Source of the DNA: Vibrio sp. MEBiC08052
GTDB lineage: Bacteria; Pseudomonadota; Gammaproteobacteria; Enterobacterales; Vibrionaceae
Reading direction: 5' to 3'
NCBI RefSeq assembly: GCF_001506075.1
Contig: NZ_KQ947475.1
Location: forward strand, 248,001 to 312,000
DNA length: 64,000 nucleotides
Shown here: positions 14,679 through 21,550 of the stretch, one piece after another
How the letters are laid out: each line of letters begins with the position of its first letter
Numbering within the stretch: position 1 is the first letter of the stretch
Made by a program: the position numbers and the translations under genes
The notes under the pieces: generated by a model
What the model saw: only the letters and a program-made list of their open reading frames with translations
Database searches by the model: none
Told to the model about the DNA's origin: nothing

Positions 14679-17279
14679 CTAAAACAGTTCTTCACCACCA
14701 TTGGGTGAGGTGTACAGACTATTCGTCACGGAATCCTGTACATATTCTTTCGGTTCGGTGCCCTGAATAAAGTATTCGAACATCGCACTACCATCCGTTT
14801 TTGTCGTTAACAATCCGCTCTCCCGATCGATTCTGACTTGAACAATATGTTTTGGGATGACCTTCTCATGTGTCGGGACATCATTGAGTGCATGGGCCAT
14901 AAAATCGATCCAAGCCGGTTCTGCTGTTTTGGCACCTGATTCGCCACCGCTAATTGGTACATCGTCGAGGTTCGGGTTTTGGGTTGTTTTGCCTAAATCC
15001 CGGTTATGGCTGTCAAACCCGACCCAGGCACTGGCAACGATACCCGGTGCAAACCCATTATACCAAGCATCTTTCGAATCGTTGGTTGTCCCGGTTTTCC
15101 CACCAATATCCCGGCGTTTGAGTTTTTGAGCACGCCATCCGGTGCCGTTCCATCCGGTTCCTTCACGCCAGTTTCCGCCACCCCAAATATTGCTATACAT
15201 CATTTCCCGAACCAAAAATGCATTCTGTTCCGAGATAACGCGTGGAGCATATTGGACATCTGCCGAATGTTCATTAAAGCGAGGTGATCCGGCATTGACA
15301 TAAGCGCTATCTTGATGAATATCGGGGGCACTGATCCCTTGTTCATTCTCTCCTTGCTGGACGCTATCGTACTGATCTTGATTTTGTAGCTCATCGCTGT
15401 CCTGATCAGGGCATTGGTCATGGCAGACGATTTTCGGTGTGGAGCGATAGACCAGTGTCCCGAAAGGATCTTCAACATGATCAATGTAATAGGCATCAAC
15501 ACTGTAACCGCCGTTGGCAAATACCGAGTATCCCTGTACCAGTTTCAGAGGGCTCAGGCTACCGGCACCCAGCGCGATGGTTTCTGAATGAGGCAGATTG
15601 TCCAGATCGAAGCCAAAACGGGTCAGATAGTGTCGCACACGTTCCAGACCAACCGCTCTGAGCACGCGGATTGCCATGACGTTTTTCGATTGTGCCAAGC
15701 CAATCCGTAGCCGCGTCGGCCCTCGGTAAGTCGGAGGTGAATTTTTAGGACGCCATGCTGTTCCCTGACTCTGATCCCATTTGTTGATCGGTGCATCATT
15801 GACCAGCGTTGCCAGCGTCAAACCATCATCAATGGCGGATGAATAGATGAAGGGTTTAATCCCCGAACCAACCTGACGGATGGATTGTGTCACGCGGTTA
15901 AACTTACTATGAATGAAATTAAAACCGCCGACCAGCGCAAGAACGGCACCATCTTCAGGATTCATCGCAACAAAAGCGGTGTTGGCATTCGGCACCTGAC
16001 TGAGATGCCAGATCGGTTGATTTTCATCCGAAGTATCATCACGTTTTCTCACCCAGATTTGTTCACCGGCTGCCATGATTTGATGGGCGTCCGTCGGCGC
16101 GTCTCCTTGCCGATCATCGGTAATAAAACGCCGGGCCCATTTCATCCCATCCCAGGGAATGGTTTGCGAACCGTGATTCTTGACCCAGACCGTCGCTGAT
16201 TGTTGGGTAACATCCGTCACAATGGCTGGGTACATATCATCGTAGATAGGTTGTTCGGTGAGGTATTCTTCCATCTGCTCTTGGGTGTACGCCGATTGAC
16301 CCGTTTTCCACAACACTTTTTCTGCACCACGATAACCATGGCGTTGATCGTAGTCGATCAAGTTATTAATGGCTGATTTATGCGCGGCATCTTGCAGATC
16401 AGACTGGATGGTGGTGGTGACTCTCATCCCTGATGTATAGGCGTCTTCACCATAATGCTCAACCATCCAGGCACGTGCGAGCTCAGCCACATAAGGTGCA
16501 TTGACTTCAATTTCAGCCACATGATATCGCGCGATCAATGGCTCAGCTTTTGCCGAGTCATACTGCTTCTGCGTAATGTAATGTTCGTCAAGCATTCGCA
16601 TCAGGACGACATTACGACGGTGGGTTGCCCGGGTCAGTGAGTAGATCGGGTTCATGGTCGACGGGGCTTTCGGCAATCCGGCAATCATGGCTATTTCACC
16701 CAGTGTGAGGTCTTTGACGTTTTTACCGAAATAGACTTGTGCTGCGGCACCAACCCCATAAGAGCGATAGCCCAGATAGATTTTGTTCAGATACAGTTCA
16801 AGGATTTCGTCTTTTGTGAGCAACTGTTCAATGTGAACGGCGATAAAAATCTCTTTTATCTTGCGCATGATTTTCTTCTCATTGCTCAGGAAGAAGTTAC
16901 GGGCAAGTTGCTGAGTAATGGTACTCGCGCCTTGAGAGGCACTACCGGAGAGTATGACGGCAAATGCCGCGCGGGTAATCCCGATGGGGTCAAATCCGTA
17001 GTGCTCATAAAAGCGATTATCTTCCGTTGCCAGAAATGCATGGATCAAATCCGGCGGGATGTCACTCAGTTTGAGTGGAATTCGGCGTTTTTCTCCAAAC
17101 TGGGCAATCAGTTTTCCATCTTTACTGAAAACCTGCATCGGTGTTTGAAGTTGAACATCTTTTAAGGTGGCGACATCAGGTAATTCCGGTTTTACATAGT
17201 AGTAAAACCCAAAAATTGTACTCACCCCTAAAACCATGCAAATCAATGAAAATAAAAATAATCGCTTTATGAACTTCAC
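14679..17279 (-). CDS. mrcA: Penicillin-binding protein 1A
   Basis: Bifunctional class A penicillin-binding protein that polymerises and cross-links peptidoglycan at the inner membrane. A single N-terminal membrane anchor (about residues 6-28) is followed by the glycosyltransferase domain with catalytic E86 in ATEDNRFYEH, and QGASTITQQLARN. The transpeptidase domain has SGIK, SKN and KTGTT motifs. I chose the GTG at 17279 because AGGGA lies seven bases before it and it yields the family N-terminus KFIKRLF; an ATG 33 bp upstream (17312) is the alternative. The 866-aa protein has an acidic, Q/D-rich insert around residues 640-685. It is divergent from pilM, as in other vibrios. Confidence 0.95.
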   Translation of the reverse strand: MKFIKRLFLFSLICMVLGVSTIFGFYYYVKPELPDVATLKDVQLQTPMQVFSKDGKLIAQFGEKRRIPLKLSDIPPDLIHAFLATEDNRFYEHYGFDPIGITRAAFAVILSGSASQGASTITQQLARNFFLSNEKKIMRKIKEIFIAVHIEQLLTKDEILELYLNKIYLGYRSYGVGAAAQVYFGKNVKDLTLGEIAMIAGLPKAPSTMNPIYSLTRATHRRNVVLMRMLDEHYITQKQYDSAKAEPLIARYHVAEIEVNAPYVAELARAWMVEHYGEDAYTSGMRVTTTIQSDLQDAAHKSAINNLIDYDQRHGYRGAEKVLWKTGQSAYTQEQMEEYLTEQPIYDDMYPAIVTDVTQQSATVWVKNHGSQTIPWDGMKWARRFITDDRQGDAPTDAHQIMAAGEQIWVRKRDDTSDENQPIWHLSQVPNANTAFVAMNPEDGAVLALVGGFNFIHSKFNRVTQSIRQVGSGIKPFIYSSAIDDGLTLATLVNDAPINKWDQSQGTAWRPKNSPPTYRGPTRLRIGLAQSKNVMAIRVLRAVGLERVRHYLTRFGFDLDNLPHSETIALGAGSLSPLKLVQGYSVFANGGYSVDAYYIDHVEDPFGTLVYRSTPKIVCHDQCPDQDSDELQNQDQYDSVQQGENEQGISAPDIHQDSAYVNAGSPRFNEHSADVQYAPRVISEQNAFLVREMMYSNIWGGGNWREGTGWNGTGWRAQKLKRRDIGGKTGTTNDSKDAWYNGFAPGIVASAWVGFDSHNRDLGKTTQNPNLDDVPISGGESGAKTAEPAWIDFMAHALNDVPTHEKVIPKHIVQVRIDRESGLLTTKTDGSAMFEYFIQGTEPKEYVQDSVTNSLYTSPNGGEELF

Positions 17280-17550
17280 CGGATAATCCCTGTTTGGTCG
17301 GATTGAACGCATGTCATCCGATCTAATTTTCGCTATTTTCTCTAAGAAACTGATCGCTTAACGTTTCATTTCAAGATAGACCCGTTGAAAAGAGTCTACA
17401 CGACTAAAAATATCGGTTGTTAAAAATATAATTGCGGCAAACCTGTCGTTTTATCTTTTTACCATCCCGTCATTTTGGTGCTATCTCAAAATGAACGCTT
17501 ATTGTACTACCAATCAGCGATTTGAACAGTGCTGAACGACTGGAGTCTGT

Positions 17551-18462
17551 ATGAGAAAACGTATCGTAACGGGAATCGATATCCGCCGTCACCGTATTAC
17601 TACCGTTACTTTAAAGCGCCAACATAACATCGTGTCATTACTTGACTGTGAAACGCTGTCTGTTCCCGATGACATTTTCTCTGAGAATGAGGTCATCGAT
17701 TATCAGAGCATTGTCAATAAACTTGCCGAAGTAAGAAAGAGATTACCTTTTTGGCAACATCGGGTTGCGATTTCGATGCCTGACCTGACGGTGATGGCCA
17801 AAACACTTCAGCTCTCTATAAGTGATTATGATCAAAGTTTGGAGCCGTGGTTGATTGCTCAGGCTTTTGCTGAAAAAACCGGCCTCTCCGGTGATTCCGT
17901 CTATTTAGATTATGTCCCGCTTCAAACTGGCTATCAGGTCTATGCTGCGAAAAAGGAAGTGGTAGAAAGCCGTCTGCAAGCGCTTTGTCTGGCCGGATTA
18001 AGACCCGTATTGATCGATACGGAAAAGCAGGCCTTTCTTCAGTTTCTGCTGCAATCCATGTGTCGTACTCAGCGTCAGGGGTGGCTACTGATTGACATCG
18101 GTGAAGATATTATCGCGATGGGATTTATCACCGATGAACTGAGTTTTTATCGTCAGTTTCCTTTTTCTGTACAGGCGTTCGATGTAGCGCTCACGCTAGT
18201 GTTACAAGAGGTGCAGCGGTTTATATCATTACATCCTGCCGCTTTGCTGAACGGGATATGGGTCAATAGTTCGCCGGGCATATATCAGACGGTAGCACAG
18301 GGGTTGCGTCAGCAATTCTGTGGGCAGGTAGAACACTTGGTGGCCGCATCGGTTTTCGAGACATCAGCTTCGATACCTGCTCATTACTGGCCTTTCATTC
18401 CATTGGCTGCCGGCAGTGCGTTGCGTGGCCTGATGGCATTGGAGTCCGGTTATGCTGCATGA
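17551..18462 (+). CDS. pilM: Type IV pilus assembly protein PilM
   Basis: Actin-like cytoplasmic protein of the type IV pilus / competence machinery, which binds the N-terminus of PilN and couples the alignment subcomplex to the motor. The 303-aa sequence has the N-terminal GIDIRRHRI phosphate-1-like segment and the LLIDIGEDIIAMGF second phosphate segment typical of the FtsA-like fold. It is the first gene of the operon and overlaps pilN by 11 bp. A possible -10 (TATAAT, 17427-17432) lies upstream. It diverges from the C-terminus of canonical PilM and resembles the competence (ComA/HofM) subgroup. Confidence 0.85.
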   Translation: MRKRIVTGIDIRRHRITTVTLKRQHNIVSLLDCETLSVPDDIFSENEVIDYQSIVNKLAEVRKRLPFWQHRVAISMPDLTVMAKTLQLSISDYDQSLEPWLIAQAFAEKTGLSGDSVYLDYVPLQTGYQVYAAKKEVVESRLQALCLAGLRPVLIDTEKQAFLQFLLQSMCRTQRQGWLLIDIGEDIIAMGFITDELSFYRQFPFSVQAFDVALTLVLQEVQRFISLHPAALLNGIWVNSSPGIYQTVAQGLRQQFCGQVEHLVAASVFETSASIPAHYWPFIPLAAGSALRGLMALESGYAA

Positions 18463-19117
18463 ACTGAATTTAATGGATTGGCGACATCGTCAATTATACC
18501 GACGGAAGCGGTTTTTATATGGATTGTGGCTCTTCGGCGGGTGTTTGTGGCTAGTTGTACAGAGTATTTTCTATTTTGAATGGCACAAGCAACAAACCTT
18601 CTGGCAACAGTCTGAGCAGCGGTTCAATTTACAACTGGATGAGCAGCAAAAGCGTCTGCATCAGTGGGAAGTGCGACAGCAACATGCGCTGCAGAATCAG
18701 CGAGAACTGGCTGACACAGAGCAGTGGATCGTACACAGCCAATTGCCGCAGAAACTTATGTCCGTGTTGGCCTCGGCTGTTCCCGACGGCATCTATCTGG
18801 AAGAAATCCGTTTGACGGAACAACTGGTTGTCATCCAAGGATTAAGTCGTCATCCGACAGTGATGAGCCGTTTTATTCAGCGGCTCAGGCAAGCCTCATC
18901 GATTAGGCAGCTGGATATTCTGTCAGTGACGGATCAGACCTCCCATTGGGGCAGCAAATTCAATACGTTTCAGCTGCGTTTGGTGATAACAGCAAACACT
19001 GGTGTCGGTTCGGTCTCAGCGATTAAGTCTGAAGTTGCAATGGAACCTGTTGCTGTCATTCATGCTGTTGAGAAACAGAACGCGATTGAGAAAAAGGACC
19101 GCGCAGATGTTCACTGA
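18452..19117 (+). CDS. pilN: Type IV pilus assembly protein PilN
   Basis: Bitopic inner-membrane protein of the pilus alignment complex. A short cytoplasmic N-terminus (LHELNLMDWRHRQ, related to the INLLPWR PilM-binding motif) precedes one membrane helix (about residues 21-42). A coiled coil (45-85) and a periplasmic ferredoxin-like domain follow. The C-terminus has about 40 extra residues rich in A, V, K and E that look poorly conserved. It overlaps pilM (11 bp) and pilO (11 bp), indicating translational coupling. Confidence 0.85.
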   Translation: MLHELNLMDWRHRQLYRRKRFLYGLWLFGGCLWLVVQSIFYFEWHKQQTFWQQSEQRFNLQLDEQQKRLHQWEVRQQHALQNQRELADTEQWIVHSQLPQKLMSVLASAVPDGIYLEEIRLTEQLVVIQGLSRHPTVMSRFIQRLRQASSIRQLDILSVTDQTSHWGSKFNTFQLRLVITANTGVGSVSAIKSEVAMEPVAVIHAVEKQNAIEKKDRADVH

Positions 19118-19724
19118 TTTTCTCCAACGTCGGATGTTGAATGCTTCGATACTGCAACAAGTGGGGATGGTGGCAGGTCTGTTTGTGGTACTCACTGGTG
19201 TCAGCTATCCACTTTTCTGGCAAAGCCGATATGACATGTTATTGCAATATCAATCCCATCTGAATGCACTGTCTCAGCAACAGGAGATGAACCGGCAACA
19301 ATTGCATGACTTTCGCCGACAGCAAGCGGATTGGGAGGCGATTCAGTACCAACTGGTGCAAACCATGGCGCAGGTAACCAAAGTGCGTGATTCTTCTGCG
19401 TGGGTCAAACAAGTCGAGCAGGTTGCAGAGCAACAGCATATTCGCATTCGACATATTGTATGGAAAACACCGCAACAACTTTATGGCCATGATGCGGATA
19501 CTTTCGAGATCAGGTTGAGCGGTCTGTTCCCTGACATCCTGAATTTCATGCGGACAATTGCGCATCAGTCTGTTGGTGTAGTGTTTCAACCGATTCGCTG
19601 GAAAAGAGTGTCACCACAGCAGCGTCGTATTGAGGTCGTCGCAACTGGTTTTCTTTATCAACTGAAAACAGATCACAGCAAAGATCATCATATAAAAGGA
19701 CATGATCAACATGAGTCAAAATAA
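19107..19724 (+). CDS. pilO: Type IV pilus assembly protein PilO
   Basis: Second bitopic alignment protein, partner of PilN, 205 aa. A short N-terminus precedes a membrane helix (about residues 19-38), then a coiled coil (SHLNALSQQQEMNRQQLHDF and onward) and a ferredoxin-like fold. The start at 19107 is the ATG overlapping the pilN stop. The frame is open upstream, but only this start gives the usual short cytoplasmic tail. The C-terminal 20 residues are H/K/D-rich and overlap the next gene by 14 bp. No pilP follows. Confidence 0.8.
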   Translation: MFTDFLQRRMLNASILQQVGMVAGLFVVLTGVSYPLFWQSRYDMLLQYQSHLNALSQQQEMNRQQLHDFRRQQADWEAIQYQLVQTMAQVTKVRDSSAWVKQVEQVAEQQHIRIRHIVWKTPQQLYGHDADTFEIRLSGLFPDILNFMRTIAHQSVGVVFQPIRWKRVSPQQRRIEVVATGFLYQLKTDHSKDHHIKGHDQHESK

Positions 19725-20844
19725 CTATCGGGGAGTGTTGTCTGACATCTGGGTGATAGGGGGGATTTTATGGGGAGTCTGTACTCAAGTACTTGCCCAA
19801 CCGACTATTGATCCGTTTGATGTGCCGATCATGACACAATCCAGTACGGTGTCCGGAGAGGCACCCGGTTCATCGCAACCGATACTGGAAACGGTGTTCA
19901 TTCCTGTCCAGTATGCGAAAACTGCAGACTTACTGCCACTACTTAAAGGAGGAGAGCAACCGGGGCTGCTTTCCGAATATGGATTGGTACGCGTTGCCCC
20001 CCGAACCAACTCGCTGATTATTCGCGATACGCCACATCATTTAGCATCGATCCGGAGCATGATCCAAGCGCTCGATATTCCCGTGAAACAGGTCAGAATT
20101 GAAGCGCGAATTGTGATTGTCAGTGAAGGGGCACTTGATGAGCTTGGTGTACGCTGGGGTGTCGGCTTGGAACAAGGGCACCTTGCCGTTGGTAGTCACA
20201 TTCAACAGCACCATACGGCAGATGACGGAGCAGACGAATCATCACAAGTGACCGATTTTATGAATATTAATTTGCCGAGTACATCCGGTAATGCTTCATC
20301 GATTGCTTTTCGATTAGCTAAGTTGGGCTCCGGCACATTACTGGATTTGGAGTTATCGGCATTACAGAGTGAATCCCGTGCTGAAATTATTTCCAGCCCG
20401 AGCCTGTTAACCACAAACCATCAGTCAGCGTTTATCGAACAAGGGACTGAGATCCCATATCAGGAGTCGAGTTCCGATGATAAGACCACCATTGCTTTTA
20501 AAAAAGCGGTGTTGAGTCTGGAAGTGACCCCGAATATCACACCGGATCATCACATGTTGCTGGATTTACGCGTAACACAAGATCGTCCCGGAGAGGTGGT
20601 TAAAACCGGTTCCGGAGAAGCTGTTGCCATTACGACGCAAAGAATCGGCACTCAAGTATTAGTCAATGACGGAGAGACAGTTGTTCTCGGGGGAATTTAT
20701 CAGAAAACTCAAATGCATCGAGTTGATAAAGTGCCAGTGTTAGGGGAATTACCGTTATTAGGCAAACTGTTTCGGCGTAATTATCAAAAGACGGATAAGA
20801 ATGAGTTGCTTATTTTTGTCACACCTCGGGTTGTGATTCAATAA
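19711..20844 (+). CDS. pilQ: Short PilQ/HofQ-type pilus secretin
   Basis: Outer-membrane secretin pore for type IV pilus / DNA uptake, 377 aa. A signal peptide (hydrophobic about residues 13-29, likely cut after VLA) is followed by one secretin N-domain (VQYAKTADLLPLLKGG...RTNSLIIRDTP) and the complete secretin domain (VKQVRIEARIVIV, ELGVRWGV, SRAEIISSPSLLTTNHQ, VPVLGELPLLGKLFR, LLIFVTPRVV). Canonical PilQ is about 550-700 aa with AMIN domains and an N0 domain; both are missing. The start ATG at 19711 has AGGA ten bases upstream; 19702 is possible but its spacing is too short. It follows pilO directly, with no pilP. Confidence 0.85.
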   Translation: MSQNNYRGVLSDIWVIGGILWGVCTQVLAQPTIDPFDVPIMTQSSTVSGEAPGSSQPILETVFIPVQYAKTADLLPLLKGGEQPGLLSEYGLVRVAPRTNSLIIRDTPHHLASIRSMIQALDIPVKQVRIEARIVIVSEGALDELGVRWGVGLEQGHLAVGSHIQQHHTADDGADESSQVTDFMNINLPSTSGNASSIAFRLAKLGSGTLLDLELSALQSESRAEIISSPSLLTTNHQSAFIEQGTEIPYQESSSDDKTTIAFKKAVLSLEVTPNITPDHHMLLDLRVTQDRPGEVVKTGSGEAVAITTQRIGTQVLVNDGETVVLGGIYQKTQMHRVDKVPVLGELPLLGKLFRRNYQKTDKNELLIFVTPRVVIQ

Positions 20845-21031: not shown

Positions 21032-21550
21032 ATGGCTGAAAAACGTAATATTATCCTTGTTGGTCCTATGGGGGCCGGCAAAAGTACTATCGGTAGATAT
21101 CTGGCACAGCAACTTCATATGGAATTTGTCGATTCTGACTCCGTTATTGAAGAACGGACGGGGGCAGATATTGCTTGGGTATTTGATGTTGAAGGAGAAG
21201 ATGGTTTCCGGAAACGTGAAGAAACTGTCATCCATGATCTGACTGAACAACAGGGCATCGTTCTGGCAACAGGCGGTGGATCAGTCAAAAGCAAAGAAAA
21301 TCGTAATCGTCTTTCTGCCCGGGGAGTTGTCGTTTATCTGGAAACGACAATTGAGAAACAGTTAGCTCGTACCAGCCGTGATAAAAAGCGTCCGCTCCTG
21401 CAAACGGAACAGCCACGCGAAGTTTTAGAAGCTTTGGCTGAGGAACGTAATCCGCTTTATGAAGAAATTGCGGATATTACTGTGAAAACTGATGATCAAA
21501 GTGCAAAAGTGGTAGCCAATCAGATCGTAAAAATGTTAGAAGAACAATAG
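21032..21550 (+). CDS. aroK: Shikimate kinase I
   Basis: Phosphorylates shikimate at the 3-hydroxyl in chorismate synthesis. The 172-aa protein has the Walker A loop GPMGAGKST (residues 10-18), the shikimate-binding [15 protein letters not shown], and GGGSV of the Walker B-like region. The KRPLLQ lid arginine segment is also present. It lies between pilQ and aroB as in other gammaproteobacteria, with 187 bp upstream probably holding a promoter. Confidence 0.96.

Follow-up and report, generated by a model that had tools for sequence, protein, structure and literature searches.

In type IVa pili, the motor platform is considered to be bridged to the outer-membrane gate, the secretin PilQ, by the inner-membrane lipoprotein PilP, and the contact between PilP and the N0 domain of PilQ is thought to be central for joining the two membranes. 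In this study, we have analyzed a pilus assembly operon of Vibrio sp. MEBiC08052 that lies in a stretch of 64,000 nucleotides (nt) of contig NZ_KQ947475.1 (positions 248,001 to 312,000; referred to here as the window). The operon has the order pilM-pilN-pilO-secretin gene; pilP is absent from it, and the secretin is a short PilQ. We propose, with a probability of roughly 0.7, that the short gene encodes a PilP-PilQ hybrid whose tail docks the secretin on PilN and PilO without the PilP-N0 contact.

Previous studies reported that the unstructured N terminus of PilP binds PilN and PilO and that its HR domain binds N0 (PMC5285504, PMC5805733). In Vibrio cholerae PilQ, N0 spans residues 160 to 227, and the folded domain after it is named N3 (PMC7545093); this domain is called N1 in our analysis. 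The AMIN domain varies in the PilQ family, with 27 of 197 members described as having none (PMC7545093). Compared with the canonical Vibrio pilMNOPQ operon and its PilQ (6W6M), the window has the same gene order and neighbors, and its N1 domain and secretin core could be aligned over 320 residues; however, the window secretin lacks AMIN, N0, and the coil helix, pilP is gone, and the leader carries a PilP-type motif. Compared with PilP itself, the short gene shares the overlap of its start codon with the pilO stop codon and a D/N-P-F leader, but the protein has neither an HR domain nor a fitting lipobox, and its remainder is a secretin.

According to a preprint, the PflD protein of the Campylobacter flagellar motor consists of a PilP-like loop with a domain resembling PilQ N1 after it and interacts with homologues of PilN and PilO (PMC11870540). 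The same join of a PilP loop to N1, likened here by description, is likely present in the window secretin on the basis of its sequence, whereas PflD starts with a transmembrane part, lacks a secretin barrel, and functions in the flagellar cage. Secretins of the HofQ type are likewise short PilQ relatives, and HofQ models match the window secretin at 310 and 235 bits, both under the model cutoffs; however, in the solved HofQ fragment 2y3m the match is confined to residues 100 to 173 of 175, so that this fragment has a portion before N1 that the window secretin lacks. The Thermus system likewise has no recognizable PilP: PilW stands in for it without sequence likeness to known type IV pilus proteins, and shortening of PilW moves the platform about 7 nm closer (PMC13039148). 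Unlike the tail proposed here, PilW is a protein of its own that contains an HR-like domain and is encoded in the pilP position (PMC13039148). No account of a PilP-PilQ fusion or of a vibrio without PilP was found in the literature searched, which covered few subscription papers.

Domain content of the short secretin and its junction with pilO

An earlier note on this DNA, made from its letters alone, had described a secretin of 377 amino acids (aa) with one N-domain and a core, without AMIN or N0, that begins within the end of pilO and leaves no room for pilP. Both descriptions were borne out. When the 380-aa form was searched, Pfam returned Secretin_N at residues 66 to 130, Secretin at residues 220 to 378, and nothing else; no match to STN/N0 or AMIN was obtained, and the score against the PilQ model TIGR02515 was above the cutoff of 284.35 bits. 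Residues 59 to 377 aligned with residues 252 to 571 of V. cholerae PilQ (6W6M); the short secretin therefore lacks the AMIN, N0, and coil regions. No hidden Markov model (HMM) match to PilP, including its C-terminal HR beta-domain, was found in it, and no lipobox cysteine was apparent: by eye the GVC context is unfit, and the cysteine is missing in genomes G305 and G255. The structure model of the short secretin was mediocre (mean predicted local distance difference test [pLDDT] score, 64.5; template modeling [TM] score to known secretins, about 0.35), and its use was limited to the predicted disordered leader and folded N1 domain.

Between pilO and the secretin gene, the window has no room for a further open reading frame (ORF). 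A fusion of pilP onto the end of pilO was also considered and rejected, since pilO encodes 205 aa. Two in-frame ATG codons are available to the secretin gene; AAGGA (19696 to 19700) lies 10 nt ahead of the ATG at 19711 and 1 nt ahead of that at 19702, and therefore 19711 is the likelier start. The frame offset between the pilO stop codon and the short pilQ equals the usual pilO-to-pilP offset in 24 of the 25 short loci found in the genus, which are not mutually independent; this offset was observed at 30 of 42 pilO-to-pilP junctions versus 9 of 42 pilP-to-pilQ junctions. Furthermore, the 14-nt overlap in the window is the same as the pilO/pilP overlap in the canonical locus L064, and the pilO tails of the two loci read HESK and DESR. 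Because both the frame offset and the overlap match a pilO/pilP junction, the start of the short gene is most likely the former pilP start.

Paired absence of PilP and N0 across the genus

Among 150 genomes of the family, PilP was detected above the Pfam cutoff in 131 and with some match in 140. Open frames of PilQ were listed in 227 genomes of the genus, and loci with short or intermediate frames were taken for annotation (81 full operons, 78 from the genus and 3 from other genera, plus 22 partial loci); the other genomes were assessed by frame length alone. Four of the 227 were left unjudged, two of them of about 1 Mb (G158 and G168) and two without a PilQ match close to the scores of the others (G145 and G315). 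G145 has PilP, yet no PilQ match better than 1e-40. Eight genomes in which pilQ was interrupted or started late (G226, G317, G176, G320, G240, G300, G250, and G254) and two duplicates (G012 and G138) were set aside before counting.

An intact PilQ of 360 to 416 aa with neither N0 nor a PilP match was found in 25 of the 227 genomes, and a six-frame search of these 25 loci revealed no N0 DNA (best E value, 2.9). N0 was kept in 68 other intact loci, 65 of which gave a PilP HMM match, several of them weak (16 to 20 bits); the remaining three (G011, G299, and G266) have PilO frames of 314 to 413 aa whose ends are PilP-like by eye. All eight set-aside loci had clear N0 DNA in the six-frame search and a PilP match. 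With a single-sequence model, no AMIN match was obtained in 38 of the N0-keeping loci, 36 of which encode proteins of 436 to 498 aa; therefore, PilP and N0 go together, and AMIN can go alone.

Other rearrangements were seen in the same loci. In six of them, PilO frames of 307 to 413 aa seem to end in PilP, a rewiring in the reverse direction, as judged by a PilP HMM match in L100, L099, and L108 (genomes G296, G199, and G149) and by eye only in L110, L111, and L112 (G011, G299, and G266). In the set-aside loci (L063, L070, L076, L077, L113, L115, L124, and L125), mutation, start choice, or sequencing error is possible. Outside the annotated loci, G072, from another genus, has a short PilQ frame with an internal stop.

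A tree was built from the flanking mrcA and aroK DNA (81 rows, of which 73 were counted). The state without PilP and N0 required four changes on this tree, with a quick or a careful search alike, and also after seven long-branch rows, two of them short-PilQ rows, had been dropped. The four groups are the window's clade with G251, G150, G259, and G303 (group 1); eleven genomes designated B (group 2); G155, G295, and G277 (group 3); and G116 (group 4). A single clade of all 25 was rejected by the approximately unbiased (AU) test, the set having been defined by the trait ahead of tree building. The exact number of events could differ, as G303 and G259 sit on long branches. The short-secretin state is thus old, conserved, and recurrent beyond what the earlier note had described, with 25 genomes and four changes of state. 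In the B loci (L088 to L096, L102, and L105), [QEK]WF follows the signal peptide, and their nearest relatives on the tree, G132 and G276, have PilP-like frames with SPFRLPN.

The leader of the short secretins and the proposed tether

The G116 leader, SPHTFEQLRDPF, aligns with EPHSFEQLRDPF of PilP from the sister genome G261, with a score of 67 that was reached by none of 60 shuffles, and this likeness to PilP spans 41 residues. Alignment of the two genomes at the DNA level ran as far as the end of pilO and resumed where N1 begins, with the leader DNA in between unaligned. Across the short PilQs, [D/N]PF, a motif picked after the leaders had been seen, is present in 14 of 25 leaders, versus 0 of 68 leaders of N0-bearing PilQs, two of which contain an unrelated PF. 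The carriers make up the whole of groups 1, 3, and 4 (14 genomes). In the window the motif reads IDPFDVP, so the P-F typical of the PilP N terminus is present.

The P-F pair is conserved at 90% or more in a 41-row PilP alignment and occurs somewhere in the protein in 82 of 87 PilP matches (duplicates included); Myxococcus xanthus PilP carries it as KRDPFRSP. In the PilPs of the 17-row group that contains the window's clade, the corresponding residues are RNPF (G318, G247, and G233), HSPF (G237), SNPF (G300), RQPF (G325), and REPF (G224). The ratio of nonsynonymous to synonymous substitution rates (dN/dS) in the six genomes of the window's clade was 0.20 for the signal peptide, 0.07 for the ten motif codons, 0.40 for the linker, 0.10 for N1, and 0.06 for the secretin core, with a value of 0.10 for pilQ as a whole, as expected of a gene under purifying selection. 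The motif block is a conserved island ahead of a fast linker in this clade.

We postulate that pilQ, just ahead of N1, was fused by an in-frame deletion to the beginning of pilP (its start codon, its signal peptide, and D/N-P-F). The D/N-P-F stretch would come from the disordered N terminus of PilP, and the deletion would have taken out the C-terminal HR domain of PilP together with the AMIN, N0, and coil parts of PilQ. If the leader is a PilP tail, then the secretin may carry its own tether: the N-terminal tail would dock at the inner membrane on the heterodimer of PilN and PilO, presumably through the P-F motif, and N1 and the barrel would form the outer-membrane gate, so that neither HR nor N0, nor the contact between them, would be needed. 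Such a leader suggests a possible way for the alignment complex to still reach the secretin. The earlier note had suggested one deletion over pilP and the 5' part of pilQ that kept the frame intact; this idea stands, with the amendment that the retained 5' end is probably that of pilP and not that of pilQ, given the shared pilO overlap, the P-F motif, and the direct PilP match in G116.

It can also be envisioned that pilP and the PilQ N terminus were simply lost, that the secretin works without a fixed link to the inner membrane, and that D-P-F arose by chance. The shortness of the motif and the weak leader alignments in the window's clade would fit such a truncation, and pili have been reported to form without some Pil proteins once retraction is abolished, although the same paper describes assembly in Neisseria meningitidis as needing PilP (PMC10191384). 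We consider this explanation unlikely, since the motif occurs in 14 short leaders, representing three of the four events, and is absent from the 68 other PilQ leaders, forms an island of conservation before the linker, and in G116 is part of a PilP likeness that extends well beyond it.

Several observations nevertheless weigh against a docking tail derived from pilP. The shared motif amounts to two or three residues, and Neisseria PilP has GPNAF in the motif column. Alignments of the leaders of the window's clade with PilP are weak, the best score being reached by 1 to 10 of 60 shuffles (9 for the window); the leaders of G251, G150, G259, and G303 are indistinct from shuffles (14, 39, 59, and 48 of 60), those of G295, G277, and G155 stand out modestly (3, 1, and 6 of 60), and 0 of 60 was obtained in G116 only. 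None of the eleven B genomes has D/N-P-F; all 11 have [QEK]WF instead. By the phylogenetic sign test, four events are too few (p 0.125). In two-hybrid experiments, PflD is described as binding the PilN and PilO homologues only with the transmembrane parts and not through the periplasmic regions alone (PMC11870540), a result that argues against the loop being the main contact there. In Pseudomonas aeruginosa, PilQ without AMIN is reported to form stable but nonfunctional oligomers (PMC5285504). Finally, judged by frame length and score, no PilU-type match was found in the MEBiC08052 genome at an E value of 1e-30, and the machine may therefore be losing function.

Searches of the whole genome and the remaining pilus machine

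A pilP and a full-length pilQ elsewhere in the genome would argue against the deletion, as the earlier note had pointed out. All three contigs of the 4.76-Mb source genome were searched, and no match was found to PF04351 (PilP) at E values up to 10 or to a 41-sequence Vibrionaceae PilP profile at E values up to 1. Besides the short PilQ, the genome has one secretin, a 681-aa frame next to matches of the GspE and GspC types. A second PilQ and a distant pilP were therefore rejected. Because only two secretins were found, the mannose-sensitive hemagglutinin (MSHA) pilus system appears to be absent. The GspE-, GspD-, and GspC-type matches lie at G000:C2 226244-230600, on the 544-kb contig and not the 4.07-Mb contig.

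Perhaps PilP has been replaced, as by PilW in Thermus, by an unrecognized protein that is encoded elsewhere and holds N1 or the linker. A protein of the PilW type could escape profiles (PMC13039148). Our PilP profile was clear in 11 of 15 control genomes, weak in G149 (E value, 8.2e-5), and missed G011, G299, and G266, and it had been built partly from control genomes later tested, so that 12 of 15 is no independent test of it. Applied to the 25 short genomes, it gave no match in 8; the matches in the other 17 were weak (best E value, 0.0013), and nearly all of them fell on the signal-peptide region of longer frames. We regard such a replacement as quite unlikely, since no ORF fits between pilO and the secretin gene in the window, the sole GspC-family match in the genome adjoins genes of the type II secretion system, and a substitute of the HR type would depend on N0, which has been lost too. 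On this last ground, GspC as a stand-in for PilP was rejected.

The genome otherwise encodes much of a pilus machine. PilB and PilT match PF00437, ComEC matches PF03772 (759-aa frame), and frames for PilA, PilC, and PilD were recognized beside pilB by reading translations. PilT (G000:C3 5395-6186, L127) is the one recognized retraction ATPase. All 18 genomes searched for ComEC had it; the frame in G155 is short (428 aa). No PilU-type match was seen in G196, G255, G259, or G303 either, and neither a PilT- nor a PilU-type match was recognized in G251 or G150, where a 383-aa frame of G150 scored like the longer ATPases. These ATPase results, together with the interrupted pilQ frames of other genomes in the genus, would be expected if the machine were decaying and the short secretin were a stage toward loss. 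We find this very improbable, as the frames are intact in 25 genomes, the dN/dS values given above are low in the six clade genomes, and pilABCD frames and ComEC are present. An assembly or annotation artifact at the pilO-pilQ junction, which the earlier note had also contemplated, is excluded, since five close relatives, V. ruber (G255) among them, share the arrangement, the junction is the same in all six genomes, with PilQ identities of 86 to 90%, and nothing was found in favor of an artifact.

The window retains the mrcA/pilMNOPQ/aroK-aroB neighborhood except for pilP; the same neighborhood has been described previously (PMC7545093). Coordinates are given in Table 1.

Table 1. Features of the pilus assembly locus and its neighbors (positions in the window)
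Feature	Position	Strand	Basis and remarks
mrcA (PBP1A), canonical neighbor upstream of the pil operon	14679..17312	-	ORF; N-terminal part matched in 81 tree rows
pilM	17551..18462	+	303 aa; PF11104, E 1.2e-14; TIGR01175, 101.7 bits (below the 133-bit cutoff)
pilN	18452..19117	+	221 aa; PF05137, E 4.3e-10
pilO	19107..19724	+	205 aa, without a PilP-like extension; PF04350, E 5.5e-6; 197 aa in canonical PilO of L064
Short secretin, likely PilP-tail/PilQ hybrid	19711..20844	+	377 aa; TIGR02515, 361.9 bits; in-frame ATG also at 19702
Overlap of secretin start and pilO stop, 14 nt	19711..19724	+	Like some canonical pilO/pilP junctions
Signal-peptide region, residues 1-29	19711..19797	+	By eye, hydrophobic leader with end VLA-Q; model, helix 6-27
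PilP-like motif block QPTIDPFDVP, residues 30-39	19798..19827	+	dN/dS and motif counts
N1 (Secretin_N) domain	19897..20091	+	PF03958; compact fold, pLDDT about 78-93 in blocks of ten
Secretin core	20359..20835	+	PF00263, E 6.3e-49; best Foldseek match 6w6m
aroK, canonical downstream neighbor, then aroB	21032..21550	+	ORF; matched in 81 tree rows

Taken more broadly, there may be an even chance that the PilP-N0 contact has been dropped on about four occasions within a single genus, at least partly by deletions that weld a PilP tail to the secretin, to give a self-tethered and shortened machine, and that the join of a PilP loop to N1 was reached separately in the flagellar cage of Campylobacter. 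The bridge and its socket have been lost jointly while the docking tail has seemingly been kept on the gate, which amounts to a natural experiment; such lineages suggest that the contact between the tail and PilN/PilO matters, and they predict a shorter machine. The short form offers a minimal secretin for structural work, and it makes the need for AMIN and N0 in piliation or DNA uptake testable outside P. aeruginosa. In this bacterium and some two dozen relatives, the pilus machine is probably wired in a shorter, simpler way.

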